From: Candidatus Cloacimonadota bacterium | GTDB taxonomy: Bacteria; Cloacimonadota; Cloacimonadia; Cloacimonadales; Cloacimonadaceae | Assembly: GCA_028695495.1 (NCBI GenBank) | Contig: JAQVIX010000007.1 | Coordinates: 1 to 60,928, forward strand | Length of the DNA: 60,928 nt | Direction: 5' to 3' | Shown here: positions 922 through 16,178 of the stretch, piece by piece | How positions within the stretch are numbered: position 1 is the first letter of the stretch | Layout of the letters: the number at the start of each line of letters is the position of its first letter | Notes under the pieces: model-generated | Database searches by the model: none | What the model saw: the letters and a program-made list of their open reading frames with translations, nothing else | What the model was told of the DNA's origin: nothing | Translations under genes and position numbers: made by a program

Positions 922-1082
922 ACTCACCTCTATTTTTGATTTTCATGGGACGTTTTGGGTGACAAACATGGGACAAATATAGTCAAATCCTGTCAAGCGA
1001 AATCATGCGGATTTTGTGTAAAGAGTTGTTTAATATATGCGTTATAGCGTAGTGTCAAATACAGTAAAAGCCTCGGTAGGGA

Positions 1083-1127
1083 TTCGCAATCAATAGGTCA
1101 GGGGTTCGAATCCCCTTAGCTCCACCA
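1083..1127 (+). other. tRNA 3'-end fragment, probable attachment site
   Basis: The segment carries a perfect T arm (AGGGG, loop TTCGAAT, CCCCT, 1100-1116), the acceptor 3' strand TAGCTCC, discriminator A and an encoded CCA (1125-1127). Upstream, TTCGCAA at about 1083-1089 would be an anticodon loop with CGC (Ala-like), but no matching 5' half exists: there is no GGAGCTA acceptor strand 76 nt upstream and the anticodon stem does not pair. It is therefore a fragment, as left at one end of an element integrated into a tRNA gene. The stop codon of the antisense brxL-like gene lies inside it. Amino-acid identity is a guess. Confidence 0.8.
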
Positions 1128-2630
1128 GCCTTTTATCTTGGCAATTCGCGGCGGCTTTGGTGCCGCTTTTTCGATAATATCCCTACTTTTAATCTCCGGC
1201 ATAAAGGGGCTGTATTCGCTATCCATTTCGGCAAGTTGACGCCGGATAATGCCGCGGGCCTTCATGGCGGGTTGCAGGATAAATTGTTCAAACTCAGTTT
1301 TGGGAATATCGTCCGGTTTTAAGGCATGAGGGTAAAGCAACTTCAGATAAGCAGTTGCCAGTTTGATTACCGCCTTGGTATCCCGCGTATCGGCAGTTTT
1401 GGGAATATCCAGCCGCGCCTTGATAATCTCCGCATAAGTGGTATCAAAACGCAGGTGGTGCAATATCTCCGCAAAGTATTCACTATTAAGGGCATAGCCT
1501 TTTAGTTTGAGGTCTTCGGTAAAGCGGAAAAGCTGCCAGCCGGGGATGAATCCATGGATTCTATCTATCAGCGCAGAGGATTGAAAGAAGGAGGGCAGGT
1601 CTTTGAAAAAGAGGCGGTGCCGGGGCTGTAAAGCTTTGGTAAGTGCGATATTACCCAGCAGCATCAAGCCGCAATCCGAAATGCTCTGATAATTTCCCAC
1701 CACTATTTTGCCATTTTCCAGATAGTTTTTAAAGGCACCCAAAAGGTCTTCTTCCTGGGCAAATTGCAGGGTTTCAATCTCGTCCAGCGCCAGAAAGTCG
1801 TAATGGTGAATGATGCCCGGGCTGCGGGTAGAGAGATTGTAAAAGATGCTGGCGCGGGTAACGATACCGCCGCTTAAAGTCCAGCCATATTTGGATAAAT
1901 TATTGAAAGTATAGGATTTGCCAGTGCCTTTGGGAGCAAGCTCGATGATATTGAGATTTGGCTCTACATACACCAAAAGACGGGAGAGGTAGCAGAGTTT
2001 TTTACCCAAATTGAAATCGCCACTGCCCTGATAATCCGGATTGATCTCCATGCTGCGGATTAGCAGGTCTATCCATTCGGAGGTGTTAAATTGCTCCCGC
2101 GCTTCTTTGTAAAAATCCAGATTCACGCGGTAAGGCTCGAAGGGTTTGAAATCTGTAAGCTCCACATAGCCTTTGTCGCTGCCTTCCGGCGGCACATAAG
2201 TAAGCTGCAAGATGCCCCATACCTCGCCATCATGCAAGCGGTTCAGCTTTTCTTCTGGCATTTGCAGCGAGATTACTCCTTCCCTTTTGCCAATACCCAA
2301 ATCTGGAATGCTGAAGCTCATTTTGCCGTTCAGAAGGTCGGTGGAAACCAATAAACGTGAGAATACCTGGATGCTGCCCCTGGATTTGAGCAGTTGCCGG
2401 CGGATATTCGTGCCTTTGCGGGGGATTTTGCTTTCGATAAATTGCCAGCAGGCGTCTTTATCAAAATAGCCTTTATCCGAAAAAGCTTTGATGAGCCAAT
2501 CCTTTACAAAGGAAGGCAGATTGCGCCCGCTAAAAACGCTATAGGCAGCGGGATCTTTATAGACGGATTCCAGCGGAAAGAAGCCGGGAATCTTGGCGTC
2601 TAAACCTTGGCTAAGAGCTTTGGGTTCCAT
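1116..2630 (-). CDS. brxL: BrxL-like AAA+ protein (short form)
   Basis: The 504-aa protein has the BrxL signature: Walker A in ELAPKGTGKSY (232-239), then YGWTLSGG and the Walker B FLALDE (279-284), followed by a GxYxS-type segment and a LLGNI strand. BrxL proteins are ring-forming DNA-binding AAA+ factors of BREX phage defence. Long BrxL forms (near 680 aa) carry a C-terminal Lon-like domain; here the protein stops about 170 residues after the ATPase core with no recognisable Ser-Lys protease domain. It may be a natural short form or truncated by integration, since its last residues (GWWS) and stop are read from a tRNA 3' fragment. Last gene of a four-gene operon, 3 bp after its neighbour. 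Confidence 0.85.
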   Translation of the reverse strand: MEPKALSQGLDAKIPGFFPLESVYKDPAAYSVFSGRNLPSFVKDWLIKAFSDKGYFDKDACWQFIESKIPRKGTNIRRQLLKSRGSIQVFSRLLVSTDLLNGKMSFSIPDLGIGKREGVISLQMPEEKLNRLHDGEVWGILQLTYVPPEGSDKGYVELTDFKPFEPYRVNLDFYKEAREQFNTSEWIDLLIRSMEINPDYQGSGDFNLGKKLCYLSRLLVYVEPNLNIIELAPKGTGKSYTFNNLSKYGWTLSGGIVTRASIFYNLSTRSPGIIHHYDFLALDEIETLQFAQEEDLLGAFKNYLENGKIVVGNYQSISDCGLMLLGNIALTKALQPRHRLFFKDLPSFFQSSALIDRIHGFIPGWQLFRFTEDLKLKGYALNSEYFAEILHHLRFDTTYAEIIKARLDIPKTADTRDTKAVIKLATAYLKLLYPHALKPDDIPKTEFEQFILQPAMKARGIIRRQLAEMDSEYSPFMPEIKSRDIIEKAAPKPPRIAKIKGWWS

Positions 2631-2633
2631 TAG

Positions 2634-3893
2634 TTAATCGTCAAAAAGCTCCTGCAAGGGGGTTTCGCTAAGCCCTACGCCATCTTCTTCAAAATCGGCA
2701 AAATCCATCTCCGACATGAGATTATCTTTGTAAGCTCGGGGCAGAGTGCCGCGCATGGCGTAAATATCCATTATCTCGATAAATACTCGTACTATCTGCC
2801 TTAGAGGTTTGCCACGGTAATCGATAAGCTTCAAAGCATCTTCCACGAAGCTGGGGGGAATCTCATATTGCCAGGGCAGAGCCAGATGGTGAATCTCTAA
2901 AAGCTCTTCCATTAGTTGCAGATAGTCGCTCTTTTTGGCGGGGGCGAGCACGATATTGCTATCGGAAGTGGCATAATCGAAAAAGCGGGCAATCTTATGC
3001 GCTTCCTCTTCGCTATGGCGCTGCTCTGCCATGGTGGGCATATCGCGGGCGTCATTCTTTCGGGTGCCGTAAAAGACGTCATCCTGCAAGGTTTTAACCG
3101 AGGCGGCAAGGGTGTAGATGGGCAGTTTATGCTCTTTGCTTAGGTTCATAAGCCAGTTCAGATTTTGGTAGGATTTCAGGCGCGCTACCTTGCCCAATTT
3201 GCCGGTAGTTTCCAATTCATCAATCAGGATTACCCAGCCCTTATATCCCATCGCCTGTAGCAAATAGGGGATGAACTCAAAGAAGCTCATAAAGTGATCC
3301 CTTTGCCGGAAGCGGGGCAATTCTTTCATTTCTGCCTTAAAATACTCGCGGGCAATGCGTTGGGAACGGACGATATTCTCCTTTTTGCCCATCAGCGCAT
3401 TGTATAGGGTAATGGTATGCCGCTCTTCATAAAGGGAAAAGGCTTTGAATATGAGGGTGGGCAGGGGATGCAAAAGTTTCTCGGCGATAAAGGGTAATTT
3501 GGCGATGATCTCATGCGGCGGATTCATCTGCGAAAGCGGATTGAGGAGACCGGGGAGATTGTGACCAGGGATGCGCAGATGCGAGGTAAATGCGGGAAAA
3601 AGCTGTTGCAGATTGTTGAGATTGAGCTGCCGCGAGAGCGAGATGTAGCTAACGGCATAGCCATCGCTTAAGAGGTTCTGCTCCAGTTGCTTCAGGAAGT
3701 GGGTTTTGCCCTGACCGTATTCGCCCCATACCAGCTTGCCTTTGGGTGAGCCGCCGGAGGCGAGTTTCTCCAAATCCGGCTCCAGCTTTTGCATCAGGGA
3801 TTTGCGGATATCCAGGGTGCCCGCCACGGTATCCCGGCTGGGAATGCCGGCGCGGATGGCTTCTAACATCAAGATATAATCGGTATTAGACAT
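2634..3893 (-). CDS. P-loop ATPase, BREX DUF2791 type (BrxD-like)
   Basis: The 419-aa protein has Walker A GEYGQGKT (57-64) and Walker B VILIDELE (221-228), then a TLAASVK strand that fits sensor 1 and a helical C-terminus. The GEYGxGKTHFL / LIDELE combination is typical of the DUF2791 'BREX ATP-binding' family that accompanies BrxL or helicases in defence islands. It overlaps the preceding ATPase gene by 8 nt, so translation is likely coupled, and brxL follows directly. No nuclease or methylase domain is visible. Specific partner and trigger are unknown; its role as an ATP-driven switch with BrxL is inference. Confidence 0.75.
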   Translation of the reverse strand: MSNTDYILMLEAIRAGIPSRDTVAGTLDIRKSLMQKLEPDLEKLASGGSPKGKLVWGEYGQGKTHFLKQLEQNLLSDGYAVSYISLSRQLNLNNLQQLFPAFTSHLRIPGHNLPGLLNPLSQMNPPHEIIAKLPFIAEKLLHPLPTLIFKAFSLYEERHTITLYNALMGKKENIVRSQRIAREYFKAEMKELPRFRQRDHFMSFFEFIPYLLQAMGYKGWVILIDELETTGKLGKVARLKSYQNLNWLMNLSKEHKLPIYTLAASVKTLQDDVFYGTRKNDARDMPTMAEQRHSEEEAHKIARFFDYATSDSNIVLAPAKKSDYLQLMEELLEIHHLALPWQYEIPPSFVEDALKLIDYRGKPLRQIVRVFIEIMDIYAMRGTLPRAYKDNLMSEMDFADFEEDGVGLSETPLQELFDD

Positions 3894-5082
3894 AAGGTAG
3901 CTCCGGCTGGGGTATTAGGTAGTTTTGCAGCGCACTGCGAAAATCGGAATACTGGATTTCGGGAAATACCTCGGTAGCGCTAAATTCCTCCGGATAGGCG
4001 TGGCTTAATTGCCGGTATTTCTGCGCCAAACGCTGTAGCTCCCCGCTTTGAATCGCTTCATAGAGTAATAGGTTAGCGTCGATAAGATCAGAATAAGGAT
4101 TCAGGTAATCCTGCCATACAAAGCCGGGCTGCAGGCGCATCCAGAGAGCATGGTAGCTTTCAAAGCCGTGGCGCTCGTTATTCATCATCTCCTCACCGGC
4201 AGCCACCAGGATGAGGGTATTGGGAAAGAAATCCATATCGTCAATAAGCTGGCGCAGAAGCTCATATACATCGTTGCGGCGCATGGGGGTATAGCGCAGG
4301 CGGCTTTCGGCAAGCGGCAGGATGGCTTCCAACTGGTCGATGGTAATTACCAGCCCCTTGTAGCCGGAAAGCAGCAACAATTTGATCAGCGAATAGAGCC
4401 AAATGCGGGCATTACTACGAGCAAGCACTTCGTAAAGGCTGCTGGCAGTTTTTTGCGCATAAATCAGCTTTTCGCCTTTGAGCCAAAGCGAGGCAATCTC
4501 CAGCGCCTGAGTATCCTGAAAGCTAAGTGCATTGGCAAGGATATACAAGTATTTACGGAAGGCAAAATCTACGTCTATCTCGTTGATAACCGTATTGATG
4601 GCAGCCCTGAGCGTCTTTGTCGCTTCGAGGGGGCTGGCAGCCTCTTTTTGGCAGAGATAATCCACAATATTTGGGGTATCGGCAGGGATATCCGCTTCAG
4701 TGTAGCCCAAAGCACGAATAATAAGCTGCCGCAGGTTTTGCTGTAAACGGCTGCTATCAAAGCAGCGCACCACCTCTTTGTAAAGCTGCACGGGGTCGTT
4801 TAGAAAAAACTCCGCTTCGGCAATATTGATCTGGCAGAGGTAAAAGCCCTGTTCGCAAGCCGCTTCCGCCAAAGAGCGCAGGAAGTGGGATTTCCCCGTT
4901 CCGCTGGCGCCGTGCAATACCTTCAATTTGCTGCCACCGGCGGCGATTAGCTCTTGCAGGGTATAGCTTTTGATGAGTTTCAGCCAGTCGTTTTCAATAC
5001 AGAGATACTTGAGCAAATCTGGGTTATGGGGCGGCTGTCCGCTGCGTAATAGCTGTAAATCTTCGCTGCTGAGGGCTATCAT
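3886..5082 (-). CDS. P-loop ATPase, second DUF2791-like paralogue
   Basis: The 398-aa protein has Walker A GASGTGKS (58-65) followed by HFLRSLAE, and Walker B LVITIDQLE (244-252). A second strand, LILVAAGEE, fits sensor 1. The overall plan matches the next gene in the operon (P-loop, long helical insert, Walker B about 180 residues later), so the two are probably ancient paralogues that form a hetero-complex. The Walker B carries Gln where the partner has Glu (TIDQLE against LIDELE), which hints that this subunit may be the less active one. It starts at ATG 5080-5082, two bases after the upstream coiled-coil gene. Confidence 0.72.
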   Translation of the reverse strand: MIALSSEDLQLLRSGQPPHNPDLLKYLCIENDWLKLIKSYTLQELIAAGGSKLKVLHGASGTGKSHFLRSLAEAACEQGFYLCQINIAEAEFFLNDPVQLYKEVVRCFDSSRLQQNLRQLIIRALGYTEADIPADTPNIVDYLCQKEAASPLEATKTLRAAINTVINEIDVDFAFRKYLYILANALSFQDTQALEIASLWLKGEKLIYAQKTASSLYEVLARSNARIWLYSLIKLLLLSGYKGLVITIDQLEAILPLAESRLRYTPMRRNDVYELLRQLIDDMDFFPNTLILVAAGEEMMNNERHGFESYHALWMRLQPGFVWQDYLNPYSDLIDANLLLYEAIQSGELQRLAQKYRQLSHAYPEEFSATEVFPEIQYSDFRSALQNYLIPQPELPYV

Positions 5083-5084
5083 TT

Positions 5085-5852
5085 TTATTCCTCTTTGTGA
5101 ATGCTAAGGGTGGAGGCTTTCAGGCTGTCGCCATTGGCGGTTTTGATGATATACATGGTGCCGGCATTGCGGCTATTGCCCAGTTCCAGGCGGTGTCCAT
5201 TGTAGGAATCGCTGGCAAAAACCAAACGCCCTAAGTCCCACAGGAAGTTTTCGATTTTGTAATCCTGCGAGCCGGGGGCAATGCTAAATACTTCGTAAAG
5301 CAGTTTCAGGCTTACGGCATTGCCAAAGCGGGTTTCGGTAACGCCATACACGCGGGAATTTACGTATTTGTAGGCAGTTTGCACGCGCCGGAAAAAGGCA
5401 TTGGCGTTGAAGCTGCTATTTAAGCGCTTGAAACTTTGCTCCACCAGCTTTGCTACTTTGTTTATTTCCAAATCGTTAATCCGCTTTTTCTTTTTGCCCA
5501 TGATCAGCAATAGGTGCCTGTCTTCGATATTTACCACCAAATCCAGAGGACCGATAATCAGTGTATTCTCGCTGATATCCGGATTCAAACCCCGCTCTTC
5601 GAGCATGCCCTTAAGCTCTTGCAAATAGGCGTCATTATCCTGATACTGCTGGCTGAGTTCATTTAGCTCCGCATGCGCATCTGCCAGATAAGTTTCCAGA
5701 TTTTGCCAAAAGCTATCCTCTAAAGCTTTGATATTCGTAAGTGCTTTAGCGGCGCCCTCTAAGTTGTGGTTTTTGAAGGAAGCAAGCATACTGTTATATG
5801 CTGATTGTAATTTTTGTATGTCTTTGGATTTCTGCATTATAACTCCATTCAT
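5085..5852 (-). CDS. coiled-coil protein of BrxL/ATPase operon, function unknown
   Basis: First gene of the four-gene operon. The 255-aa product is not recognised. Residues 8-90 are Glu/Lys/Leu-rich and helical, with heptad-like spacing (NELSQQYQDNDAYLQELKG), suggesting a coiled coil. The rest is mixed alpha/beta with a basic patch MGKKKKRI (about 118-125) that could touch nucleic acid. No catalytic motif is seen. A second in-frame Met at residue 6 is an alternative start. By position it is the system's probable adaptor or sensor, analogous in place only to BrxA/BrxB of BREX; sequence similarity to those is not claimed. Confidence 0.6.
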   Translation of the reverse strand: MNGVIMQKSKDIQKLQSAYNSMLASFKNHNLEGAAKALTNIKALEDSFWQNLETYLADAHAELNELSQQYQDNDAYLQELKGMLEERGLNPDISENTLIIGPLDLVVNIEDRHLLLIMGKKKKRINDLEINKVAKLVEQSFKRLNSSFNANAFFRRVQTAYKYVNSRVYGVTETRFGNAVSLKLLYEVFSIAPGSQDYKIENFLWDLGRLVFASDSYNGHRLELGNSRNAGTMYIIKTANGDSLKASTLSIHKEE

Positions 5853-6102
5853 TTTTTAATGTCAAAGAGCTTTTCTGCCAAAATCTGTCAAGCGCTTTTT
5901 GTGGAAAAGTGTTCAATTTAGGATAAATTTCTGTTCAAAGAGCTTGTAAATCCTGTTCTGCGCCTTTAATTCTCGGCTCTGGTAGTAGTTCTGTAATATC
6001 AAAACCAGACCTTGGCAAAGCGTGTGCGCTGCGCTAAACTCTCTAAACTATCTAAGCCCTTTCATCTAAACCTATTTATTTTAAGCATTGCTCATTTTTT
6101 GC

Positions 6103-6130
6103 TTGACAGCTTAAGTATCACTAATATATT
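6103..6130 (+). promoter_or_regulatory. sigma70-type promoter of repressor gene
   Basis: A perfect -35 TTGACA (6103-6108) is followed after 16 bp by -10 TATATT (6125-6130). It points toward the repressor gene, whose AGGAG ribosome site is at 6171-6175 and GTG start at 6183. The 330-bp divergent gap (5853-6182) otherwise holds no gene; the promoter of the leftward BrxL operon must also lie there but I cannot place it. Confidence 0.7.
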
Positions 6131-6137
6131 GGCATTA

Positions 6138-6159
6138 TTAGTTCAGGTTTACTAAACTA
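6138..6159. promoter_or_regulatory. candidate operator, inverted repeat
   Basis: TTAGT (6138-6142) and ACTAA (6151-6155) form an exact inverted repeat across 8 bp, and TAGTT (6139-6143) with AACTA (6155-6159) forms a nested one. A third ACTAA half-site (6120-6124) lies in the promoter spacer. The site sits just downstream of the -10 box of the repressor gene, where autorepression would act. Binding by the neighbouring HTH protein is inference. Confidence 0.45.
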
Positions 6160-6182
6160 CTTATATATAAAGGAGCTTAATC

Positions 6183-6908
6183 GTGCTTTCAGAAAGACTT
6201 AAAGAATTGCGCCAGGAACTGGGGCTGAAGCAAATCGAGCTGGCAAAGGAGTTGAATATCAATCCTTCCGCCATTTCTCAGATGGAAAATGGCAGGATCA
6301 AACCCTCTTTGGAGATTTTGCTTGAGTTTTGGCAAGCTTACAAAGTGGATTTGCATTGGCTGCTTACCGGAGAAGGCAGCATGTTTACCAATGGCAGGCA
6401 AGAGCAGAGCCAGCGCACCCACAAAAGCTGGGAAACCCTGCAAAAAATGCTGAATAACAGCCTGGAAGAAATCGCCCAAGCCAAGATGGAAATGATGGAT
6501 AGCACCGTGATGGACATCCCCGTGGTGGGCGAAATCGCCGCCGGCCCCCCCGAAGAGAGCAATCTCCCCACCGCCGATACCATTTCCATTCGCAAAGGGC
6601 ATATCAAAGGCAATCCCGGCAACTTCATCTCCCTGCGCGTAAATGGACACAGCATGGAACCCTCCCTGCATCACGATGATATCGTAATCATCTACCAATG
6701 CAGCGATTGGGAAAAGCTTTCCGGCAAAATCTGCGCAGTGCGCATCGATGGCGCCATCACCCTCAAAATGATGAGCCTGGATACAAATACCCGCACCGTG
6801 GTGCTACTGCCCATCAACAAAGAATATGCGCCCATCCTGGTGAATCCCGATGACCACAAAGACCTCACATTGATCGGCAATCTGGCTTCGCTGTATAGGA
6901 GGTATTAG
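6183..6908 (+). CDS. CI/LexA-like repressor, HTH_XRE plus S24 autoprotease
   Basis: Residues 1-64 are an XRE-type helix-turn-helix (LGLKQIELAKELNINPSAISQMENG region). Residues 115-241 are a LexA/CI S24 peptidase: cleavage site Ala120-Gly121 in GEIAAGPP, nucleophile Ser157 in NGHSMEPSL and general-base Lys195 in ITLKMM. Such proteins repress transcription until RecA-filament-stimulated self-cleavage after DNA damage. The start is GTG, chosen because AGGAG lies 7 bp upstream and the frame opens directly into the HTH. It is the only clear plus-strand gene and is divergent from the BrxL/ATPase operon, so it may control that operon and the nearby integrase. Confidence 0.9.
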   Translation: MLSERLKELRQELGLKQIELAKELNINPSAISQMENGRIKPSLEILLEFWQAYKVDLHWLLTGEGSMFTNGRQEQSQRTHKSWETLQKMLNNSLEEIAQAKMEMMDSTVMDIPVVGEIAAGPPEESNLPTADTISIRKGHIKGNPGNFISLRVNGHSMEPSLHHDDIVIIYQCSDWEKLSGKICAVRIDGAITLKMMSLDTNTRTVVLLPINKEYAPILVNPDDHKDLTLIGNLASLYRRY

Positions 6909-6937
6909 ATGCTTTTTTTGGGATTTTTTCTGTAGAT

Positions 6938-6979
6938 AAAAAAAGGCAAAGCCATTTGTTGTGCTAAATGACTTTGCCT
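6938..6979 (-). terminator. rho-independent terminator for leftward transcript
   Basis: AGGCAAAGCCATTT (6944-6957) pairs with AAATGACTTTGCCT (6966-6979), 14 bp with one mismatch, 8-nt loop. Read on the minus strand the stem is followed by a run of seven T (6938-6944). It stops transcription coming from the glycan/accessory side and insulates the convergent repressor gene. Confidence 0.85.
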
Positions 6980-7002
6980 AAGGGGATTGTGTGGAAGTAG
7001 CT

Positions 7003-7283
7003 TTATTTACTTCGGATTGTGTTCAATAACTGCTTGATTTTGTTCTTCAAATTTTGCGCTACAAGTTCTTTGAGCCACCACAGATAGTTATCGTCCCAGC
7101 GCTGGGGATGCGTATTGATCATCATCCTATCCGGCGTTTTGCCCGCCTGGATCAGCTCAATAAAGTGCATCGTGCTCTTTACTTCAATCTCAAAAGCGCT
7201 ATTAACCTTGTCCCGAATGCTCACTTCGCTGGCGTTCCAGCTTCTGCCAGTATCCGTAATGTAAAAGATTTCATCTTATTTCT
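7003..7283 (-). pseudogene. polysaccharide deacetylase-like remnant, C-terminal piece
   Basis: Reading from about 7281, the minus strand gives DEIFYITDTGRSWNASE, then a tail containing INTHPQRW and ending at 7003. This aligns by eye with the C-terminal quarter of the intact deacetylase-like protein at 14601-15389 (YLSDTGRRWNG ... FTAHPEQW). An in-frame TAA directly precedes the homologous part, and the NodB catalytic half is absent. It is the stub of a glycan gene whose 5' part was replaced by the neighbouring accessory module; the module's last gene ends inside the stub. A short 73-aa product from an internal ATG is possible but unlikely to be active. Confidence 0.75.
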
Positions 7284-7810
7284 TTTACAGCTATTATCGC
7301 TACCATCGTTCTCGTTGTTCTTTTGATCACATGCCAACATTCTCTTACGGATACACTTAAAGCAAAGAATAAAACAAATTTTGCACAATAGACCAACAAT
7401 CTCATATAGCTAATGATCTTACTTTTTTCAAAAATGCTGGGCAGTAGCCACAATACCAAAGTGACCATGAGCACCAAAATAGCAACCTGATGTCCATATA
7501 TAATCGTCTCTATTCCAGCAGGCTCGTCTTCTGATATTTTTATTAGTTCATCCGATACGACCAAGGAAAGCGCAACGCCCATTATTGAAATAGTAATACC
7601 AACGAAAACACTCAAGATCGGAACAATCATTATCTTTGATAAGTCAAATATACTTACTTTTATCAACAACGAACACAGTGTCGCAAAAACCACATGGAAA
7701 ATAAGCCAATAATCGAGGAAAGAGCTTAACCCGCTCTTTGATTTACCATTTTTATCTTCAAGCCCTGCAAAGAACCATTTCCACATATTGAAACTATCTT
7801 CTGTTATCAT
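7271..7810 (-). CDS. four-helix integral membrane protein, unknown
   Basis: The 179-aa product has four hydrophobic segments at roughly residues 34-53, 60-85, 106-126 and 137-154 and a basic C-terminal tail. No named family is recognised. It overlaps the preceding 273-aa gene by ATGA, so the two are translationally coupled. Its last codons (VKEIR, stop TGA) lie over the start of the deacetylase stub, marking an insertion junction. In accessory modules such small coupled membrane proteins are often membrane-damaging effectors; that role here is inference. Confidence 0.65.
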   Translation of the reverse strand: MITEDSFNMWKWFFAGLEDKNGKSKSGLSSFLDYWLIFHVVFATLCSLLIKVSIFDLSKIMIVPILSVFVGITISIMGVALSLVVSDELIKISEDEPAGIETIIYGHQVAILVLMVTLVLWLLPSIFEKSKIISYMRLLVYCAKFVLFFALSVSVRECWHVIKRTTRTMVAIIAVKEIR

Positions 7811-8628
7811 TGCTTTCTCCGATAGATATCATTATAGAGTTTGTACATATGATCAAGAATCTTTTCATGATTCTCAGTATGCACATCTTCAAGCACTGCA
7901 GAAAGAATTCCTTGTTCATGTATTTTCACAGTTTTCTTTGGTGCATCCTTTTCAGGCAAGTAAGTAAAGCTACCGGTATTATTTGTTACATTTATTTCTT
8001 GGGCTAAGCTTCCGACCACATCGGGATTCAAGCTATCACTAGCAATTGCTACTTTTCCTTTTTCTGAATTGATTTTGTTAGCTAAATTCCCCAACATTCT
8101 TATCCAAGGACCAGAATCATCAGGATTTGATTTATAAAAAGTGAAGTTCATTTTAACTATAGAATATGCGCTATTTATAATCTGCAACACATTATTAACA
8201 TCTCGAATAGGTTCAATTTTTAAATCCATCAAGTTGTCTGAATGAGGAGAGTTTCTCTTTAAATATCTTGCTAAAGATCTTCCTATTGATTCTACCTTAT
8301 TTGATAATAAATAGTTTTCCGCAATAAACACAAGCTCTCTATCTACATCCATGAACACATGTGTTGACTCAGCCTTATCTGTATCAATATCTTGATAGTC
8401 TCCTTCTTGGAATTTTTCCATTTTCACTTCTCTTGTTTTCCAAAATTTGAAATAATAGCAATGTGGTTTAATTATGTCCAGATTACCAATTGCCCACTTT
8501 ATTCCTTTCGTTATAGTTGTAGAGGGCGACTCAATGGCATGTTTTAAAATCTTTTGATGAGGCAAATCAAATAAGCTAATTTGCTCACCTATAACAATAG
8601 TTACGCGAAACAGATAAAAATTATTCAT
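7807..8628 (-). CDS. hypothetical protein coupled to membrane protein
   Basis: The 273-aa soluble protein is not recognised. It opens with a beta-rich stretch (MNNFYLFRVTIVIG) and contains HVFMDVDRELVFIAEN near residue 92, compatible with a compact alpha/beta N-terminal domain, then a more helical C-terminal half. No nucleotide-binding or nuclease motif is seen. Codon use is A+T-rich compared with the glycan genes. It precedes and overlaps the four-helix membrane protein, the arrangement of a cytoplasmic sensor with a membrane effector or of toxin with antidote. Which applies cannot be told from sequence. Confidence 0.6.
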   Translation of the reverse strand: MNNFYLFRVTIVIGEQISLFDLPHQKILKHAIESPSTTITKGIKWAIGNLDIIKPHCYYFKFWKTREVKMEKFQEGDYQDIDTDKAESTHVFMDVDRELVFIAENYLLSNKVESIGRSLARYLKRNSPHSDNLMDLKIEPIRDVNNVLQIINSAYSIVKMNFTFYKSNPDDSGPWIRMLGNLANKINSEKGKVAIASDSLNPDVVGSLAQEINVTNNTGSFTYLPEKDAPKKTVKIHEQGILSAVLEDVHTENHEKILDHMYKLYNDIYRRKQ

Positions 8629-8718
8629 ATATGTTCATCCTTCTCTTTAACAATATACTGTCATAGTAAAAACTGTGCACATAAAAACAATCCACAAAAT
8701 ATCTAAAAACCGTTGATT

Positions 8719-9927
8719 TTAACCACGATTAAGCCACTTCTCAAAAATCGGATCTTCAATGCTTTTTCCTGCCCCAAAACTTACCTCTCTTTCTGTGCGT
8801 GATACTAAAAAATCGTCATGATCATTATAGGGGATTACATCAGTATCATGGTATTCTGTTATGTAATAAGAATACTGAAGATTCATGTTTAGACCTGAAA
8901 ACATATACATCTTCCCAAACTCAATCAGATATAATGGATCGACTTTCTTTCTGTAAAGATCTAATATGAAATTAGTAGCTCTACAAAGCTCTGCAGCATA
9001 ATCCATAATCAAATACTTGTTAAACTTATAAGTCTTGTACAGGTAGTCGTGTGTGGGTGAATTGTAAGGGTGCATATTATAGCTTTTCTCTAATTCGTGA
9101 TATCTGTTTACATTCAAATGACAAGCCTTGCTTATAACAATCAGCATATTACTCAAAATAGCCCTGAATTTCAGGAACGCATTTTCAAACTCCTCATGAC
9201 CACTCCCCCAAGTTCTATCAAGAATCCAAAGCATCAAGCTTTCAAGCGATTCATATTTCTCGCTACTAAGCCTAAATACACCACCGGTAAAAACAGTTAT
9301 CCAATCTTTCATCGATTCAAGCTCGAGCTTCATGCCCCACTGATCAATATTATACTTTAATATTTGGTCATCATGATCTACTGTTAAACGTGATCTTTCT
9401 ACAGATGCCTTCCAGTCGGCTTTATTATATTCTTGCATATGCAAATTGAGTTGATCTCGAAGTATGTTTTTAAAGTCTTCAAGTGAGTCATAATCTTTGA
9501 AGAAGCTTTCCTCCTTAATAGACTCCTTATACTCCTGCACTCTTTGGTATTCATCTTGACTATCAATTTTTTCAGCATCTACATTCTTGAAGAATAAAAG
9601 TGCTTCTTTCCCGTCTTTAGTATGCCGCACTATCTCTTCTATTGTTCCACTTATATAATTCTCTGTGCGTGACCCAACTTTCTTCCCAAATATCGCGATC
9701 AACATATCACAACGAGGTAACAACTCTTCATTCACTCTTTGTTGAGGTGCCACTCCATATCCAGCTCTGAGTTCTTTATCCCAGCCAACGGGCAATAACA
9801 CAATCCCTGTAGCTATAGAAAAGATTGAATTCCAACTATATATTTCTTCTCTTACAATATCTCTTTCTTCTACAACATCATCCGGTGATGAAATAAAAAC
9901 CCTTATTATTCTTGCAATATTTGTCAC
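8719..9927 (-). CDS. DUF4062-domain protein
   Basis: The N-terminal 110 residues match DUF4062: RVFISSPDDVVEERDIV at about 9-25, then a GIVLLPVGWD strand, CDMLIAIFGKKVG and GTIEEI. DUF4062 is a TIR-like Rossmannoid domain found at the N-terminus of STAND and other bacterial conflict proteins. Here it is followed by about 250 helical residues with no P-loop NTPase, so it is not an Avs/STAND protein. The C-terminal part is unfamiliar. It stands alone between small gaps (90 bp and 53 bp) in a module with two membrane proteins. A role as a nucleotide-directed defence effector is inference. Confidence 0.75.
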   Translation of the reverse strand: MTNIARIIRVFISSPDDVVEERDIVREEIYSWNSIFSIATGIVLLPVGWDKELRAGYGVAPQQRVNEELLPRCDMLIAIFGKKVGSRTENYISGTIEEIVRHTKDGKEALLFFKNVDAEKIDSQDEYQRVQEYKESIKEESFFKDYDSLEDFKNILRDQLNLHMQEYNKADWKASVERSRLTVDHDDQILKYNIDQWGMKLELESMKDWITVFTGGVFRLSSEKYESLESLMLWILDRTWGSGHEEFENAFLKFRAILSNMLIVISKACHLNVNRYHELEKSYNMHPYNSPTHDYLYKTYKFNKYLIMDYAAELCRATNFILDLYRKKVDPLYLIEFGKMYMFSGLNMNLQYSYYITEYHDTDVIPYNDHDDFLVSRTEREVSFGAGKSIEDPIFEKWLNRG

Positions 9928-9980
9928 GACCTTCTCCTTTCATTTAATTGACTATCAGATTATGAAAGCACATCCTACCT

Positions 9981-10946
9981 TCACGACTTTTTCGCCGATG
10001 CATTACTTTTACCACCTGTAGAACCCGATATATATATTGCAAACGCCAAAAACACCAGGGTCATACATGTAACAACTTGAGTCAATTGCAACATACTCAG
10101 GGTCGACTGAGAACTTAGGCGTGGACAATTATCCAAAAAACTGTTTGAATAGAATAGACCGCTTTGAAAGCTACACACAAAAGAATACCATAAATCAAGC
10201 TTTTTGACACTATAAAAACTAACCAAATAATAAGCAACAGAATAATTAAGTATGCACTCAATAAGGCTTGTAATTGCGAGCAAAAGTCGTTCGTGTGGCT
10301 GCAGCCTAGAATCCTTACTTCTACCTTCTGAAGCATCTTTCCCAAAAGCATAGGTAATCTCAAAAGATCGTGATAAGGTTCGTGCCATAACGAAAGTTGT
10401 AAAAAGACCGAAGCCCCAATGAGAAATATCGATGTTCCAAGGATACTTGATTATTGATACGGAAGCAGTAACTAAAACAATGATTACTGCTACAAAAACA
10501 TTACAGCCATTGAGCCGCGTGATAAGTCTCGTCAAGCCAATCTTATCTTTCAACTCGCATTTGCTATAAAGGCACGACTTAAACTGCTCTTTAAACATGT
10601 CCGCAAAAAACCAGCATGGAGATGCAAAAAACAAAACATACTTGTATATATGTGGCCATTTAGGAAGGATTTTTGATCGATCAAATGCCGAATCTCGTTT
10701 CCGTGATCTTCTATAATGACAGAACGTAATGAATAATGCAAAAGCAACGAATATAATTACCCCGACCAGCATCCACCATCTGATCTTTTCCCAACTTTCA
10801 CTAATGAAACAATAGCTTGTCACTCCCCACAATACCATCAAGAACAATGTTAAAAAGATATTATGAACATAAAACGAATATGCCTTTCTTTTTGTAAGCT
10901 CGTATATTAATTCTTGCAATATTTTTTTACCATTCTCTTTCATCAT
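9981..10946 (-). CDS. multi-pass membrane protein, channel-like, copy 1
   Basis: The 321-aa product has about six or seven hydrophobic segments (near residues 29-48, 57-77, 102-120, 150-168, 178-192, 230-250 and 285-308). It is a paralogue of the gene at 19010-20005. Shared blocks are ASPCWFFADMFK/ASPSWFFAHLFK, LSRSFEITYAFGKD, HERLLLAITSLIE, NYSV and the C-terminal SFQSGLFYSNS followed by LQLTQVVTCMTLVF. The last block (pore-like turn then a helix starting near a Leu/Gln run) resembles the P-loop/inner-helix end of two-TM ion channels, but no TVGYG filter exists. Function unknown; an accessory-module membrane effector or channel is inference. Confidence 0.7.
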   Translation of the reverse strand: MMKENGKKILQELIYELTKRKAYSFYVHNIFLTLFLMVLWGVTSYCFISESWEKIRWWMLVGVIIFVAFALFITFCHYRRSRKRDSAFDRSKILPKWPHIYKYVLFFASPCWFFADMFKEQFKSCLYSKCELKDKIGLTRLITRLNGCNVFVAVIIVLVTASVSIIKYPWNIDISHWGFGLFTTFVMARTLSRSFEITYAFGKDASEGRSKDSRLQPHERLLLAITSLIECILNYSVAYYLVSFYSVKKLDLWYSFVCSFQSGLFYSNSFLDNCPRLSSQSTLSMLQLTQVVTCMTLVFLAFAIYISGSTGGKSNASAKKS

Positions 10947-11311
10947 ATAATTCTCCAGTTATTATCTATATTGAACTTGTAACCTTAACAACAATCATCA
11001 GCCCGGACGAACTTACATCATTGCAGGAATATCTCAAACTTATCGATGAAACGCAAACGACGTAGTTTACGCTTTAAACTCTCGACACGAGAACGCGTCG
11101 AATCCAACAACTCCCCAGCAACAACAAAGCCACCACTCAACGCTTCCACGCCGCCACAAAACACCCCCAGAACTCCCTAAAAAGCCGCCAGCCGCATTAT
11201 CCCCCAAGAAACGATACCAAACCCCAAATCAACATCAACCGCGCCGTATCCGCCTCTTAACCTTGTTCTTCAAATTCCGCCCCAACAAACCACATCACTC
11301 GTCACAGATAC
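10947..11311. other. 365-bp gap with possible decayed coding sequence
   Basis: No intact gene. The plus strand is strikingly C/A-rich and nearly G-free around 11110-11260. On the minus strand one frame is open for about 50 codons up to a TGA near 11029 (ending LRRLRFIDKFEIFLQ), and stays open further upstream apart from a single TAG near 11180. It may be a decayed gene or simply a product of the strand bias. It also holds a 24-nt block repeated at 20249. Confidence 0.4.
11126..11149. repeat. 24-bp block shared with 20249-20272
   Basis: AAAGC(C/T)ACCACTCAACGCTT with two further bases and AC is identical at 21 of 24 positions to 20249-20272. A second match, GTCGAATCC, lies at 11097 and 20189. 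Both copies lie just upstream, on the minus strand, of the two paralogous channel-like membrane genes and just downstream of glycan genes. Confidence 0.55.
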
Positions 11312-11338
11312 AAAAAAGGAGCCAGTCAAACCAGCCCC
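11312..11338 (-). terminator. terminator ending the left glycan operon
   Basis: Read on the minus strand, GGGGCTGG (11338-11331), loop TTTGA and CTGGCTCC (11325-11318) form an 8-bp stem with G-U pairs, followed by six T (11317-11312). The left arm is the last coding part of the reductase gene, whose TGA (11326-11328) sits in the loop. Confidence 0.65.
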
Positions 11339-12009
11339 CCATTAATACCAACACAACTCCCCGTGACATAATCAGACTTCAAAAGAAAATCCACGGCATT
11401 GAATATATTCCCCGGATCCCCCAACATCTTCATCGGGATCTCCTCAATTATCTTCTCAAGCACATTATCCGGCACATCTTCTATCATTCCGATATCGAAG
11501 TACCCCAGATTCAGTGTATTAATCGTAATCCCAAAACTCGCATTCTCTTTAGCAACCGCTTTCGACAGCCCCCAGAGCGCAGATTTGGAAGCAGCGTAAG
11601 CACTTGTGCCCATAACCCCCATCTGCGGCACCACAGACGAAAACAGGATTATCCGCCCAAACCTTCTCTTGCGCATTAACGGAATGATCTGCCTCAAAAC
11701 CCGCTGAACCCCGAAAAGATTAGCATCAACAACCTCTTCCCATTTATCTGACTCCGCCTTATGCATCATGCAATTATAATTCACACCAACGCAATAGATC
11801 AAAGCCAAATCATCGTCTTCACACGCATTCATAGATATCCATCGCGCCACTTCCTCACCAGATCCGATATCAACCTTATCCATCTGATACTGAATATCCG
11901 CAACAGGCGCACGACTCCGATAGCTCCCAAAAACCTCATGACAAGCCGAGAGTCTATCAGCCAGATATCCGCCAATCCCACCGGACGCACCGGCAATGAA
12001 TACTTTCAC
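11326..12009 (-). CDS. short-chain dehydrogenase/reductase (FabG-like)
   Basis: The 227-aa SDR begins with the NAD(P) site GASGGIGGYLADRL and has the catalytic series Ser (SSVVPQ), Tyr and Lys in YAASKSALWG. Its closest function by context is reduction of a beta-ketoacyl thioester: it directly follows the KAS III-like gene (4 bp gap). Pairing of a KAS III with a ketoreductase in a glycan cluster suggests synthesis of a short 3-hydroxyacyl group used to N-acylate an amino sugar, as in viosamine loci. No carrier protein gene lies beside it; the two acp genes are at 56 kb. Sugar reduction is an alternative. Last gene before a terminator. Confidence 0.85.
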   Translation of the reverse strand: MKVFIAGASGGIGGYLADRLSACHEVFGSYRSRAPVADIQYQMDKVDIGSGEEVARWISMNACEDDDLALIYCVGVNYNCMMHKAESDKWEEVVDANLFGVQRVLRQIIPLMRKRRFGRIILFSSVVPQMGVMGTSAYAASKSALWGLSKAVAKENASFGITINTLNLGYFDIGMIEDVPDNVLEKIIEEIPMKMLGDPGNIFNAVDFLLKSDYVTGSCVGINGGLV

Positions 12010-12013
12010 CCCA

Positions 12014-13006
12014 TCAACTCCATCTCATCAGAGATGCGCCATAGGTCCATCCAGACCCAACAGCAGCAAAGAGCACCAAGGAACCGGGCTTCAATTTACC
12101 AGCTTTATTAACTTCATCCAACAAGATCGGAATAGTTCCACCAGAGGTATTGGCATATCTATCCATATTTGTCATAACTTTCTCAAATGGCATGCCAATG
12201 ATCTTCGCTGTTTCTTGCAAGATACGAATACTGGGCTGATGCGGGATAAGATAGTCCACTTGATCAATATTGATCCCCGTATCCTGCAAAACCCGATTGA
12301 TCGCCTTTGGCAATACCTGCACACCCGTCTCATAAACAGCGCTTCCAACCATCTGGAAATATCTATGTCCTGCATCCACGTTTTCATGGCTCATTGGAAA
12401 TTCAGAACCTCCTCCCGGAATGGTAAAGTTCCATTTCCCTCGCCCATCAGTATAGAGACGAAATGCCAAGAAGCCTTTCTCAGAATCAGTATATGTTAAA
12501 ACAGCTGCACCGGCGCCATCTCCGAAGAACACACAGTCTCTCCGATTCCAATCAATGATCTTGGAGAATGTATCCGCACCGATCACCAACACGTTATTAA
12601 AAATTCCTGTAGCAACATACTGCGCCGCAGTCGAGATCCCAAAAAGAAACCCTGAGCAAACAGCAGCAATATCAAATGCCACCGAATTATATGCTTGAAT
12701 CTTATCTTGCACGATTGCAGCGGTCGATGGCGCAAGCCTATCCGGAGTAGAAGTCGCAACAATGATCAGATCAATGTCATCAGGCGTAAGCCCCGCATCC
12801 TCAATCGCTCTCAAGCCCGCCTTAGCAGCCAAATCGCTGGTAGGCTGATCATCTTCAGCTATCCGCCTCTCTTTGATCCCCAGATTCTTATAAACCCACT
12901 CGGCATTAGTCGGCGCGATTGTCTCAATATACTCGTTTGTATACACCTTTTCCGGCACATAAGACCCAGTGCCAATGATATGAACATTTCTCACTAACTG
13001 TTTCAC
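12014..13006 (-). CDS. 3-oxoacyl-ACP synthase III-like enzyme
   Basis: The 330-aa thiolase-fold protein carries the FabH triad: Cys in DIAAVCSGFLFG (about residue 112), His in YLIPHQPS and Asn in YANTSGGTIP. N-terminal IIGTGSYVPEKVYTNEYIE is typical of KAS III. FabH-type enzymes condense an acyl-CoA with malonyl-ACP. In a glycan gene cluster and next to a ketoreductase it probably makes a dedicated acyl group rather than membrane lipid, although a housekeeping fabH cannot be excluded. It is only about a third identical by eye to the KAS III-like gene at 52645-53706, so the two are not a recent duplication. Confidence 0.88.
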   Translation of the reverse strand: MKQLVRNVHIIGTGSYVPEKVYTNEYIETIAPTNAEWVYKNLGIKERRIAEDDQPTSDLAAKAGLRAIEDAGLTPDDIDLIIVATSTPDRLAPSTAAIVQDKIQAYNSVAFDIAAVCSGFLFGISTAAQYVATGIFNNVLVIGADTFSKIIDWNRRDCVFFGDGAGAAVLTYTDSEKGFLAFRLYTDGRGKWNFTIPGGGSEFPMSHENVDAGHRYFQMVGSAVYETGVQVLPKAINRVLQDTGINIDQVDYLIPHQPSIRILQETAKIIGMPFEKVMTNMDRYANTSGGTIPILLDEVNKAGKLKPGSLVLFAAVGSGWTYGASLMRWS

Positions 13007-13021
13007 AATTATCTCCTTATT

Positions 13022-13654
13022 CTAAAAACCAAATTCTTCTTTTCTTTTTTTCAAAATAGCTTCAAACTCGCGCTCACTATAATTCTTTTTGAGCTTCGGA
13101 GCTATATCCTGTTTGACCTGTGCTGGAATACCCGCTGCAAATACAAAAGGCGGGATAGACTTAGTAACCACACTTCCGGACGCAATGATTGAGCCCTCTC
13201 CAATATCCACTCCTGGCAATATCGTCACATTAATCGCCACCCACACATTTTTCCCAATCGTTACCGGTGCAACGTATGCTTCCGACACCTCACTATGATA
13301 TTTCAATGGTTTAGTATGAGTCAGAATGAAATTATTGCCGGCAATAGAGGTTCCGCGCCCGATGGTCACAAAATATGGATATACATCATCTATCGTCACC
13401 AAAGGTCCTATATGCACATCAGAAGCAATATTCACGCCCCTCATCCTTTGCATTTTCACCCTCACCCCATTAAATGGCATTATTCTCGAAATCACCTGTA
13501 GCCAATGGTCCTTTGTCCTGTCAAAAAGGAACTTAATCCTTGCAAAAGGACCAACATACCTATGTTCTTTTGTCGTATGCTTCAAGGCTGTAAAGAAGCT
13601 TCGCTCCACATGATATGGCAGTTCCTGCTTCTCAGTTTTCAAAAACGCTTTCAT
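13022..13654 (-). CDS. hexapeptide-repeat O-acetyltransferase
   Basis: The 210-aa protein has left-handed beta-helix repeats from about residue 75 (VHIGPLVTIDD, VTIGRGTSIAG, VTIGKNVWVAINVTILPGVDIGEGSIIASGSVV) and ends in the usual loop FVFAAGIPAQVKQ. Family members are trimeric acetyl-CoA transferases acting on sugars. The H of ILTHTKPL and the following extended loop fit the acceptor pocket of the NodL/WbbJ group. It lies between KAS III and deacetylase genes in the same direction with small gaps. Acceptor unknown; O-acetylation of a glycan residue is the likely task. Confidence 0.85.
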   Translation of the reverse strand: MKAFLKTEKQELPYHVERSFFTALKHTTKEHRYVGPFARIKFLFDRTKDHWLQVISRIMPFNGVRVKMQRMRGVNIASDVHIGPLVTIDDVYPYFVTIGRGTSIAGNNFILTHTKPLKYHSEVSEAYVAPVTIGKNVWVAINVTILPGVDIGEGSIIASGSVVTKSIPPFVFAAGIPAQVKQDIAPKLKKNYSEREFEAILKKRKEEFGF

Positions 13655-13684
13655 CTTCCGACCTTGTTCATCAATTCTTTGTAG

Positions 13685-14614
13685 TTAAAACCTAAACTCA
13701 TCTCTCACATAATCTTTCATCTTTAAAAAAGAATATCCCTTTTGCGCATAAAAAGCAATCAGTTTTTCATATATCGGCAGCGCAGAATCACCCAAATTCT
13801 TCACTTTCAGCTTTGCCCGGATGAGGTCGTTCAATAGATATGCAATCGGATTTGACGATCTCCTTGTTATCTTTCTTGATTGTTCGCTTTCATCGATAAA
13901 CTCGTTCGGGTGTATCAAAAATACCGCCGGCTTGGAATTAAAGCCCGACTCATAATGCAAGACTCTTTGCTGTACACTCGTCAGCGAAGGCATCATCCTC
14001 ATCGTTGTCCCCACATAAGGCATCAAAAGTGCAGACAAAGGCAATTCCACCAACTTACTCTGACCTCTTTTATAGATATTGTCTTCTTGAACTCGATATG
14101 GCAATCTCGGTGCATTTAGAAAACTAAGCTTTTGTTTCGAACCAAAAGACAAGAAGAAATCGAAACGTTGTGATGCAATAGAACTATCAATCTCAAAGCC
14201 GGTCTCGATTAATGCCCTAGCTGTTATCGGTGCCACTCTCAAAGCAGGCGCACGGAAAGACACAACTTCTTTGCCGGAGATATCTTCCAAGAGCTTTTTG
14301 GAATATTCCAAATGGCATTTCTGCCTCTCAAAAGGCATAACATCAAATCCATTTTCTTTGATATGAGATTTTCCATGTGAGCCGATCTCATGCCCCGCAT
14401 CAGCTACCATCTTGACTGCTTCCGGAAATAGCTCTGCCATATATGCAGTATAAAAGAAAGTAGAACAAACATCATATTTTGCATACAAGTCCAAAAGCCG
14501 AGGTATCCCCTCGCGCATAACCTTCTCACCCGTCTCATTTCTGAGATCATTGAACCAAATTGATGTAGTTTCCACATCATTGGAAAGCAATGCAATATAC
14601 TTATTCTTTGCCAC
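13685..14614 (-). CDS. polysaccharide deacetylase family protein
   Basis: The 309-aa protein is a NodB-fold carbohydrate esterase 4 homologue: the metal Asp is in ALLSNDVETTS, and the His pair in GHEIGSHGKSH (about residues 94-104). Later RAPALRV matches motif 3. It overlaps the next upstream deacetylase-like gene by 14 nt, so both are co-expressed. CE4 enzymes remove N- or O-acetyl groups with a divalent metal; many cluster-borne ones act on lipid-linked or periplasmic glycans. No signal peptide is present, so action in the cytoplasm is expected. Confidence 0.88.
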   Translation of the reverse strand: MAKNKYIALLSNDVETTSIWFNDLRNETGEKVMREGIPRLLDLYAKYDVCSTFFYTAYMAELFPEAVKMVADAGHEIGSHGKSHIKENGFDVMPFERQKCHLEYSKKLLEDISGKEVVSFRAPALRVAPITARALIETGFEIDSSIASQRFDFFLSFGSKQKLSFLNAPRLPYRVQEDNIYKRGQSKLVELPLSALLMPYVGTTMRMMPSLTSVQQRVLHYESGFNSKPAVFLIHPNEFIDESEQSRKITRRSSNPIAYLLNDLIRAKLKVKNLGDSALPIYEKLIAFYAQKGYSFLKMKDYVRDEFRF

Positions 14615-15458: not shown

Positions 15459-16178
15459 TCAAGTTTTGTTCATTACTTTCTGTGCTACGATACTCAACGA
15501 ATCTTGCACATCATCCGGCATCAAATCCGCATGCAGCATCCGAAAGCCGGCAGTTTCTATCTCGCGGATAATATCATCTTGCTCGCCGATGTAACGAATC
15601 GCTACATCATTACGGATATAGCATCGGGAAGCCGCATCAAAATGCTTCAATACTTCAGGGGCTTTGGGGGCATTGCACATTGTGTTGCAAATGTATATCC
15701 CGCCAGCTTTTAGATTGTTTATGATGTTGCTGAGATACCTTCTTCTGTCTTGACCGATAATGCAATGCATTACGTGGTTATCCAGCACTATATCAAAGGG
15801 TTCAGCGGCAATATATCTATCCTTTGCCGCATCAAACACCGCAAAACTCAGCTTTGATTTCCGCAATTTAGCTTCTTCGATAGCCCAATCAATCGCCACC
15901 TGAGATACATCGATGCCCACTACACTATATCCCCTCTTTTCCAACCAAAAAGAGATATTGCCAGCCCCACAACCAATATCCAATACCCGCCCCGCTTTCG
16001 GGATATCTGCATGCGAAAATACCTGCGTCAATAGCGAAATACTTTCATTAAGCCCCTCAGCATCGTCCCAGCCCGGCAAGCCAGCCGCTTTGTTTCGCTG
16101 GTAGGCAAGGTCGTGGGAGGGGTAGGAGGTTTGGGTAGTTTTGGCGATTATGGATGACATATATTTGAAGGTTATCAT
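15459..16178 (-). CDS. SAM-dependent class I methyltransferase
   Basis: The 239-aa protein has SAM motif I VLDIGCGAGNISFWLEKRG (about residues 64-83), acidic GIDVSQ at the end of strand 2 and motif IV FDIVLDNHVMHC. The start overlaps the stop of the TOPRIM gene (ATGA), so it is translationally linked to that pair; a later Met (MSSIIAK, residue 7) is an alternative start. Sequence alone does not reveal the acceptor. Position between a defence-type pair and glycan genes leaves two readings: glycan O-methyltransferase reached by the inserted pair, or a third member of the ATPase/TOPRIM module. Confidence 0.85.
   Translation of the reverse strand: MITFKYMSSIIAKTTQTSYPSHDLAYQRNKAAGLPGWDDAEGLNESISLLTQVFSHADIPKAGRVLDIGCGAGNISFWLEKRGYSVVGIDVSQVAIDWAIEEAKLRKSKLSFAVFDAAKDRYIAAEPFDIVLDNHVMHCIIGQDRRRYLSNIINNLKAGGIYICNTMCNAPKAPEVLKHFDAASRCYIRNDVAIRYIGEQDDIIREIETAGFRMLHADLMPDDVQDSLSIVAQKVMNKT

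Follow-up and report, generated by a model that had tools for sequence, protein, structure and literature searches.

A conserved CC-D1-D2 gene triad beside BrxL and other DNA motors: a candidate helicase-control module of prokaryotic immunity

Near the start of contig JAQVIX010000007.1 from a Candidatus Cloacimonadota bacterium (GenBank assembly GCA_028695495.1), a compact operon on the minus strand encodes a coiled-coil protein (CC), two BrxD-like ATPases (D1 and D2) and, last in the run, a short form of BrxL, a protein of bacteriophage exclusion (BREX) systems, with intergenic spacings of -8 to +3 bp. The stretch analysed, referred to here as the window, comprises 60,928 nucleotides and begins at base 1 of the contig (C134), in a genome assembled in 155 contigs. 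Sequence comparison indicates that the conserved unit is the triad CC-D1-D2, defined as the three genes adjacent, in that order and on one strand, and not the four-gene operon, and that the triad is accompanied by different DNA motors in different clades. There is roughly an even chance (probability of about 0.5) that the operon is an anti-invader machine, in which an ORC/Cdc6-like complex of CC, D1 and D2 places the BrxL motor on DNA or controls it there. It is also possible, at somewhat less than even odds, that the triad serves prokaryotic immunity at large as a module for loading or controlling helicases, in analogy to ORC/Cdc6 acting with MCM, and plugs into BrxL, UPF1/DNA2-like superfamily 1 (SF1) helicases, XPB-like superfamily 2 (SF2) helicases, SNF2 helicases and the Cas3 of subtypes I-A, I-B and I-D; the operon of the window would be its BrxL-type member.

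Within the phylum Cloacimonadota, for which 125 genomes were surveyed, the four-gene order recurs in three further species (G042, G032 and G007), a recurrence on which a preliminary description of this DNA had made its interpretation depend. High-scoring relatives of CC were found only in G042 and G032, and those of D1 also in G007, where the operon stands at a contig edge and the contig starts inside D1. BrxL is always the next gene after D2, at a distance of no more than 28 bp in all four Cloacimonadota loci. Between the window and G042, nonsynonymous divergence (dN) is 0.2-0.5 and synonymous divergence (dS) is saturated, and all four genes are intact across independent species. The dN/dS ratios of CC, D1 and D2, approximately 0.08-0.34 in comparable pairs, indicate that the three genes are under purifying selection. 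A profile scan of GTDB contigs identified CC-D1-D2 in Atribacteria (L068, with a damaged CC/D1 junction), in the Firmicutes UBA3570 (L069) and in two metagenome-assembled genomes (L070 and L071), and BrxL is adjacent to the triad at none of these four loci. When genomes from the phyla of these hosts were sampled more widely, D1 matches were obtained in 15 of 386 genomes (E up to 1e-10) and in 17 of 398 and 5 of 50 (E up to 1e-20). In one class, 26 of 113 genomes had a D2 match. Reading the neighbourhoods of the strong matches gave 50 loci with a complete, in-order triad (the window and 49 others) in several phyla; with L050, whose CC is lost to a contig end, these form the 51-locus set used below, and one further locus (L172) contains D2 only.

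At 31 of the 51 loci, the gene run of the triad also includes a helicase or translocase. Short BrxL occupies this place at four loci (the window, L009, L010 and L050) and long BrxL at two (L141 and L186). At 13 loci (L173-L185), all of them in one bacterial class, D2 is directly followed by an SF1 helicase of 861-898 aa that matches UPF1, SMUBP-2 and DNA2 (E = 1e-21 to 1e-10); the helicase of L176 has zinc-ribbon-like cysteines near its C-terminus. Five loci (L132-L135 and L169) carry, in divergent orientation, an SF2 helicase of the XPB type with ResIII, Helicase_C and ERCC3 domains, which matches PbeA; three (L142, L143 and, in convergent orientation, L171) carry a SNF2 helicase that matches ZorD and DpdE; and four (L137, L138, L139 and L170) carry Cas3. 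The same motor search over a 41-kb stretch of the window gave no match, although this null is small. The motor type tracks the clades of a D2 tree with 43 rows, and 6 changes suffice for 6 states among the labelled rows.

The BrxL of the window (1116-2630, minus strand, 504 aa) is composed of a BrxL_N domain and an MCM-like AAA+ domain, without the C-terminal Lon-like domain. It matches the Pfam families BrxL_ATPase (5e-105) and BrxL_N (5e-17), the PADLOC model PDLC02505 of 482 residues over its full length (1.6e-182) and NCBIfam TIGR02688 (426 bits against a cut-off of 329). Residues 66-466 align to the solved BrxL structures 8emc and 8emh through the end of the AAA+ domain, at which point the Lon-like part is missing, and BrxL carries a Walker A (GTGKS) at residues 235-239 and DE at 283-284. 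Its nearest relatives are the BrxLs of the other Cloacimonadota operon copies (64-76% identity). The operon BrxLs form one clade (support 100/100) that is nested among the short BrxLs of BrxP-PglZ loci, i.e., type 4 BREX: L051, L053 and L055, where BrxP, PglZ or BrxC was confirmed by PADLOC, and L054, which has the same layout. The BrxL of the Cloacimonadota operon was probably captured from type 4 BREX. The long BrxLs that follow the triad in two other genomes (L141 and L186) match each other at 7e-125 and the short operon BrxLs at approximately 1e-50, and the D2 proteins of these loci are far from the Cloacimonadota clade on the D2 tree. Their mutual similarity and distant D2 proteins suggest that BrxL was probably recruited by the triad at least twice.

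In one clade, the triad is located co-directionally inside type I cas operons, between the effector and adaptation genes. The gene order is cas8b-cas7b-cas5b-cas3-CC-D1-D2-cas1-cas4 at L137 (I-B), cas3-cas8a-cas7-cas5a-DUF4282-CC-D1-D2 followed by a cas4 fragment at L138 (subtype I-A genes), and cas10d-cas7d-cas5d-cas3d-CC-D1-D2-DUF4282-cas1-cas4 with a repeat array at L139 (I-D); L170 is a further I-B cas operon with the triad, while L168 reads triad-cas1-cas4 and L136 triad-cas6. A small DUF4282 protein lies by the triad at L138 (9780-10148), L139 (6390-6749 and 10013-10357) and L168 (10773-11180). The same placement in three subtypes (I-A, I-B and I-D) argues against accidental proximity, although the host organisms are related. 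Relatives of the triad also adjoin Cas4, Cas6 or a type II methylase. Directly 3′ of the G042 operon lie DUF488-DUF488-DuOB genes (L009, 12995-14723). Because relatives of the triad lie in such settings, a role of the operon and the module in defence is plausible.

The two ATPases are members of the BrxC/BrxD family PF10923 (formerly DUF2791). D1 (3886-5082, minus strand, 398 aa) scores 103 bits (2e-29) and D2 (2634-3893, minus strand, 419 aa) 77 bits (2e-21) against a cut-off of 22.2, and a P-loop is present in both. They fall well short of the BrxD equivalog NF033438 of NCBIfam (86 and 50 bits, respectively, against a cut-off of 350), and PADLOC labels them as weak BrxD/SngB only. D1 and D2 fall into two distinct clades, both supported, in each of which the Cloacimonadota members are one sub-clade. 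The D2 of the window, an ATPase of the ORC/Cdc6 type, retains both Walker A (GEYGQGKT) and Walker B (LIDE), whereas its D1 has an intact Walker A and a replaced Walker-B glutamate (IDQ). This asymmetry is general in the reference alignments: the glutamate is absent, with Q, N or D in its place, in 9/9 D1 proteins (alignment A10), and DE is kept in 11/11 D2 proteins (alignment A11). The D1 of L068, which has DE, is an exception, and the Walker-A pattern is lost from D1 at the CRISPR-linked loci L136-L139 and the SNF2-linked loci L142-L143. When the PDB was searched with profiles of D1 and D2, only weak matches were returned, to DnaA and DnaI around the P-loop, and these are not taken as proof. 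CC (5085-5852, minus strand, 255 aa) is conserved among its homologs (alignment A12) and matches no family of Pfam, PADLOC or NCBIfam. Its AlphaFold model (predicted local distance difference test score, pLDDT, 86) has long helices at the N-terminus and an alpha/beta part at the C-terminus; a fold search gave no PDB match with E < 0.001 and nothing useful in the PDB or BFVD. Matches of CC to PADLOC models of PbeC and Cas8e were dismissed as coiled-coil noise.

The simplest mechanism to propose is that CC, D1 and D2 would assemble into an ORC/Cdc6-like complex that loads or controls a swappable motor, in which D2 would be the active ATPase, D1 would bind nucleotide and probably hydrolyze it poorly, and CC would serve as the adaptor. 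BrxL, as an MCM-like AAA+ ring, would be loaded onto incoming or replicating phage DNA, where it would block or dismantle replication with no need of a methylation mark; target choice or discrimination, and an anti-phage effect of the module, would belong to the same scheme. In other lineages, the triad would work with the UPF1/DNA2-like, XPB-like, SNF2 or Cas3 motors. Published work speaks for such a scheme. BrxL resembles MCM in structure, no helicase activity was seen for it on its own, and it has been suggested to require loaders (PMC10164562). BrxD and BrxC have been assigned to the ORC/Cdc6 clade, with BrxL near MCM (PMC10164562; PMC12839542), and BrxD has been proposed as the loader of BrxHI (PMC12839542). 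The mode by which BREX restricts phages is still open, and loading factors for BrxL have been suggested but not identified (PMC10164562). In the operon, BrxL stands apart from the methylation machinery and in the company of three proteins that are candidate loaders or adaptors, so that four genes are enough to put the question to the test. Should UPF1-like, XPB-like, SNF2 and Cas3 motors be served by the module too, several defence systems would have in it a common component that has no name so far, and the triad would also be a candidate accessory of type I CRISPR.

Several observations weigh against this scheme. The AlphaFold model of D2 (pLDDT 82) matches archaeal Orc1, ORC/Cdc6 and BrxC chains among others; however, these fold matches are weak (best E 1e-3, none below 0.001). 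L140 and L141 depart from the usual asymmetry in that D2, and not D1, is the protein without the Walker-A pattern, so the assignment of D2 as active and D1 as inactive is not universal. Approximately 12 loci with adequate flanks, which lie in the clade nearest to the Cloacimonadota branch, have no motor of the searched types within about 7 kb. Of all motorless loci, most belong to the core clade (100/100), of which the Cloacimonadota BrxL branch is also a part, and several of the others are truncated by contig ends. Some motorless copies lie among housekeeping genes with shared synteny (L099/L100), which implies that the triad need not have a helicase partner in cis.

These last loci also bear on another explanation, in which the triad is a chromosomal DNA-maintenance module, engaged in repair, replication restart or segregation, which gained various helicases and for which any link to defence is incidental. 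Copies without a detected motor, in housekeeping surroundings that are shared by related genomes, would fit this explanation, as would the purifying selection on the triad genes and the absence of relatives from the phage records searched. Evidence against a maintenance function comes from the patchy presence of the triad in the sampled genomes (15/386 and 17/398 at the cut-offs applied and, in one class, 26/113), from its position within cas operons of three subtypes or by Cas4, Cas6 or a type II methylase, and from motors that include BrxL and Cas3. A maintenance module is considered unlikely, at perhaps half the credence given to the loading of BrxL by CC, D1 and D2.

The surroundings of the operon raise a further alternative, namely that it serves an integrative element as an SOS-inducible system for maintenance or exclusion, under the control of the divergent S24 repressor. 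All five open reading frames of the preliminary description, i.e., the four operon genes and this repressor (6183-6908, plus strand), were recovered in place, and the CI/LexA-type autoprotease is intact as claimed: it comprises HTH_3 and Peptidase_S24 domains, and the cleavage site Ala119-Gly120 and the residues Ser157 and Lys195 are all present. In addition, an integrase and an attachment (att)-type copy of tRNA-Ala border the operon. The integrase, a tyrosine recombinase truncated by the contig end (1-927, minus strand; Pfam Phage_integrase, 5e-7), is followed by a 45-bp stretch (1083-1127, plus strand) that repeats exactly the 3′ half of the tRNA-Ala(CGC) on contig C72 and holds the BrxL stop codon (1116-1118). 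The BrxL of the window is approximately 20 residues longer at its C-terminus than its relatives, and this extension reads into the tRNA-Ala copy. The full tRNA-Ala lies on C72, and the window, in which no complete tRNA was found, carries the 3′ half only; this orientation of the tRNA core sets the integrase element to the left of the core and leaves BrxL outside, in the flank. A tRNA-bounded island containing the operon was rejected on this ground; BrxL may have arrived earlier, in a tandem island.

Control of the operon by the repressor, and with it the induction by DNA damage that had been put forward, is not supported, given the lack of conservation and the position of the operator-like sites. 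None of the other Cloacimonadota copies has the repressor at its side, and the operator-like half-sites ACTAA/TTAGT (at 6120, 6138 and 6151, within 6120-6155) are 250 bp away from the operon and occur only at the probable promoter of the repressor itself (6103-6130, plus strand, 11/12 match). The overlap of the ACTAA half-sites with this promoter suggests that the S24 repressor regulates itself. As for mobility, the proposed link stands for the window copy, with its integrase and tRNA fragment, and does not extend further: relatives of D1 or D2 were found neither in IMG/VR nor in phage records, none of the window D1 was found in plasmids, and a plasmid search with a Firmicutes D2 gave two remote matches only (21-27% identity), one of them beside a DEAD helicase in Deinococcus. 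An inducible system of an integrative element is very unlikely. A sigma70-like consensus site (TTGACA-18-TATAAT, 12/12 match; 5836-5865, minus strand), the only perfect one in the window, overlaps the start codon of CC with its -10 element, and a transcript from it would begin within CC. The homologs of CC suggest that its true start is the ATG at 5837.

Among the proteins by which BREX is recognized, the operon contains BrxL, with a BrxL_N and an MCM-like AAA+ domain as in BREX types 1 and 4, to which BrxL is specific according to a BREX survey of 2026 (PMC12839542), and, as in type 4, without the C-terminal extension domain (PMC12839542). The partners of BrxL are different. A phmmer comparison of the window with reference proteins found no relatives of PglX, PglZ, BrxC or BrxP, a search that is not exhaustive because PglZ types diverge, and no PglZ model matched the window genes at 1-11 kb. 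The only PF10923 proteins at the operon are those of 398 and 419 aa, with no BrxC relative, and phmmer with reference PglZs, of limited sensitivity, gave no match at L009, L010, L050, L141 or L186. Within the limits of these searches, the reported lack of pglX, pglZ and brxC nearby stands and applies to BrxP as well, and no complete BREX locus was found on the contig. The idea of a reduced, methylation-independent defence system is borne out in so far as a unit with a BREX part but without methylase, PglZ or BrxC is conserved; "reduced" may be right for BrxL, given the nesting of its clade among type 4 BrxLs, but not for CC, D1 and D2, which are a separate triad and no BREX remnant, D1 and D2 being only distantly related to BrxD. 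That the operon is a decayed type 4 BREX locus, in which BrxL and leftover ATPases remain after the loss of BrxP, BrxC and PglZ, is hardly credible: this nesting and the PF10923 domain that D1 and D2 have in common with BrxC and BrxD speak for it, but D1, D2 and CC have a two-clade history of their own across phyla, mostly without BrxL, four type 4-like loci (L051, L053, L054 and L055) contain no match to CC, D1 or D2, and the four genes are intact in independent species despite saturated synonymous sites (dN 0.2-0.5).

The triad also shares features with other systems. Like BrxD-BrxHI of type 2/6 BREX, it places a PF10923 ATPase of the ORC/Cdc6 type beside a helicase; unlike that pair, it has two ATPases of distinct clades, one of them usually with a degenerate Walker B, as well as CC, its motor is BrxL or a helicase of another family, and its ATPases lie far under the BrxD equivalog cut-off. 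Shango (SngA TerB, SngB ATPase and SngC helicase; PMC10250203), which is not mentioned in the BREX survey (PMC12839542), follows a similar compact, methylation-free logic of ATPase plus helicase, and D1 and D2 match SngB weakly. However, the operon has a second ATPase and a different motor and lacks a TerB protein: the upstream protein, CC, has no match to SngA/TerB, and no SF2 helicase corresponding to SngC is present in the operon. A more distant Cloacimonadota operon (L011, L012, L060, L061 and L062) is composed of a homologous triad, CC′-D1′-D2′, in which a BrxHI/SngC-like SF2 helicase replaces BrxL; it differs in sequence (approximately 20% identity in CC), and both of its ATPases keep the DE motif. 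The CRISPR-embedded triads (L136-L139, L168 and L170) are likewise homologous, with Cas3/Cascade genes in place of BrxL and a D1 devoid of the Walker-A pattern at L136-L139.

The operon of the window belongs with the known kind of ORC-type ATPase plus motor, a placement that may be too modest for the entire module. PADLOC 2.0.0 contains no model of CC, and no description of a CC-D1-D2 module was found in PADLOC or in the open-licence literature, an absence that is no proof of novelty. In the same literature, no link of BrxD or PF10923 to this gene arrangement was found, PF10923 appearing in one unrelated paper. Term searches of the FLSHclust paper and of the 2025 CRISPR classification found no mention of BREX or BrxD, the sources searched do not list CC-D1-D2 as a CRISPR accessory, and the CC′-D1′-D2′-helicase operon is likewise undescribed in them.

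Some further genes were observed in the window and near related loci. The same contig encodes an AbiLi/AbiLii-like pair, i.e., an OLD-type AAA ATPase and its partner (16175-18053), and a DUF4062 protein (8719-9927) that matches the N-terminus of the candidate defence model PDC-S60. Elsewhere in the same genome (L059, contig C6 of G000, 930-13803), a type 1 BREX locus with PglX, PglZ and a long BrxL, which differs from the operon BrxL, is followed by an SMC/LmuB-like protein of 1092 aa. Downstream of the CC′-D1′-D2′-helicase operon at L061, there is a 967-aa protein (942-3845) with ATPase parts similar to mad3/mad8 of MADS. At L131 (3901-10509), the triad, with a frameshifted D2, precedes two genes on the same strand, one for a protein of 437 aa and one for a protein that appears to be Hsp70-like.

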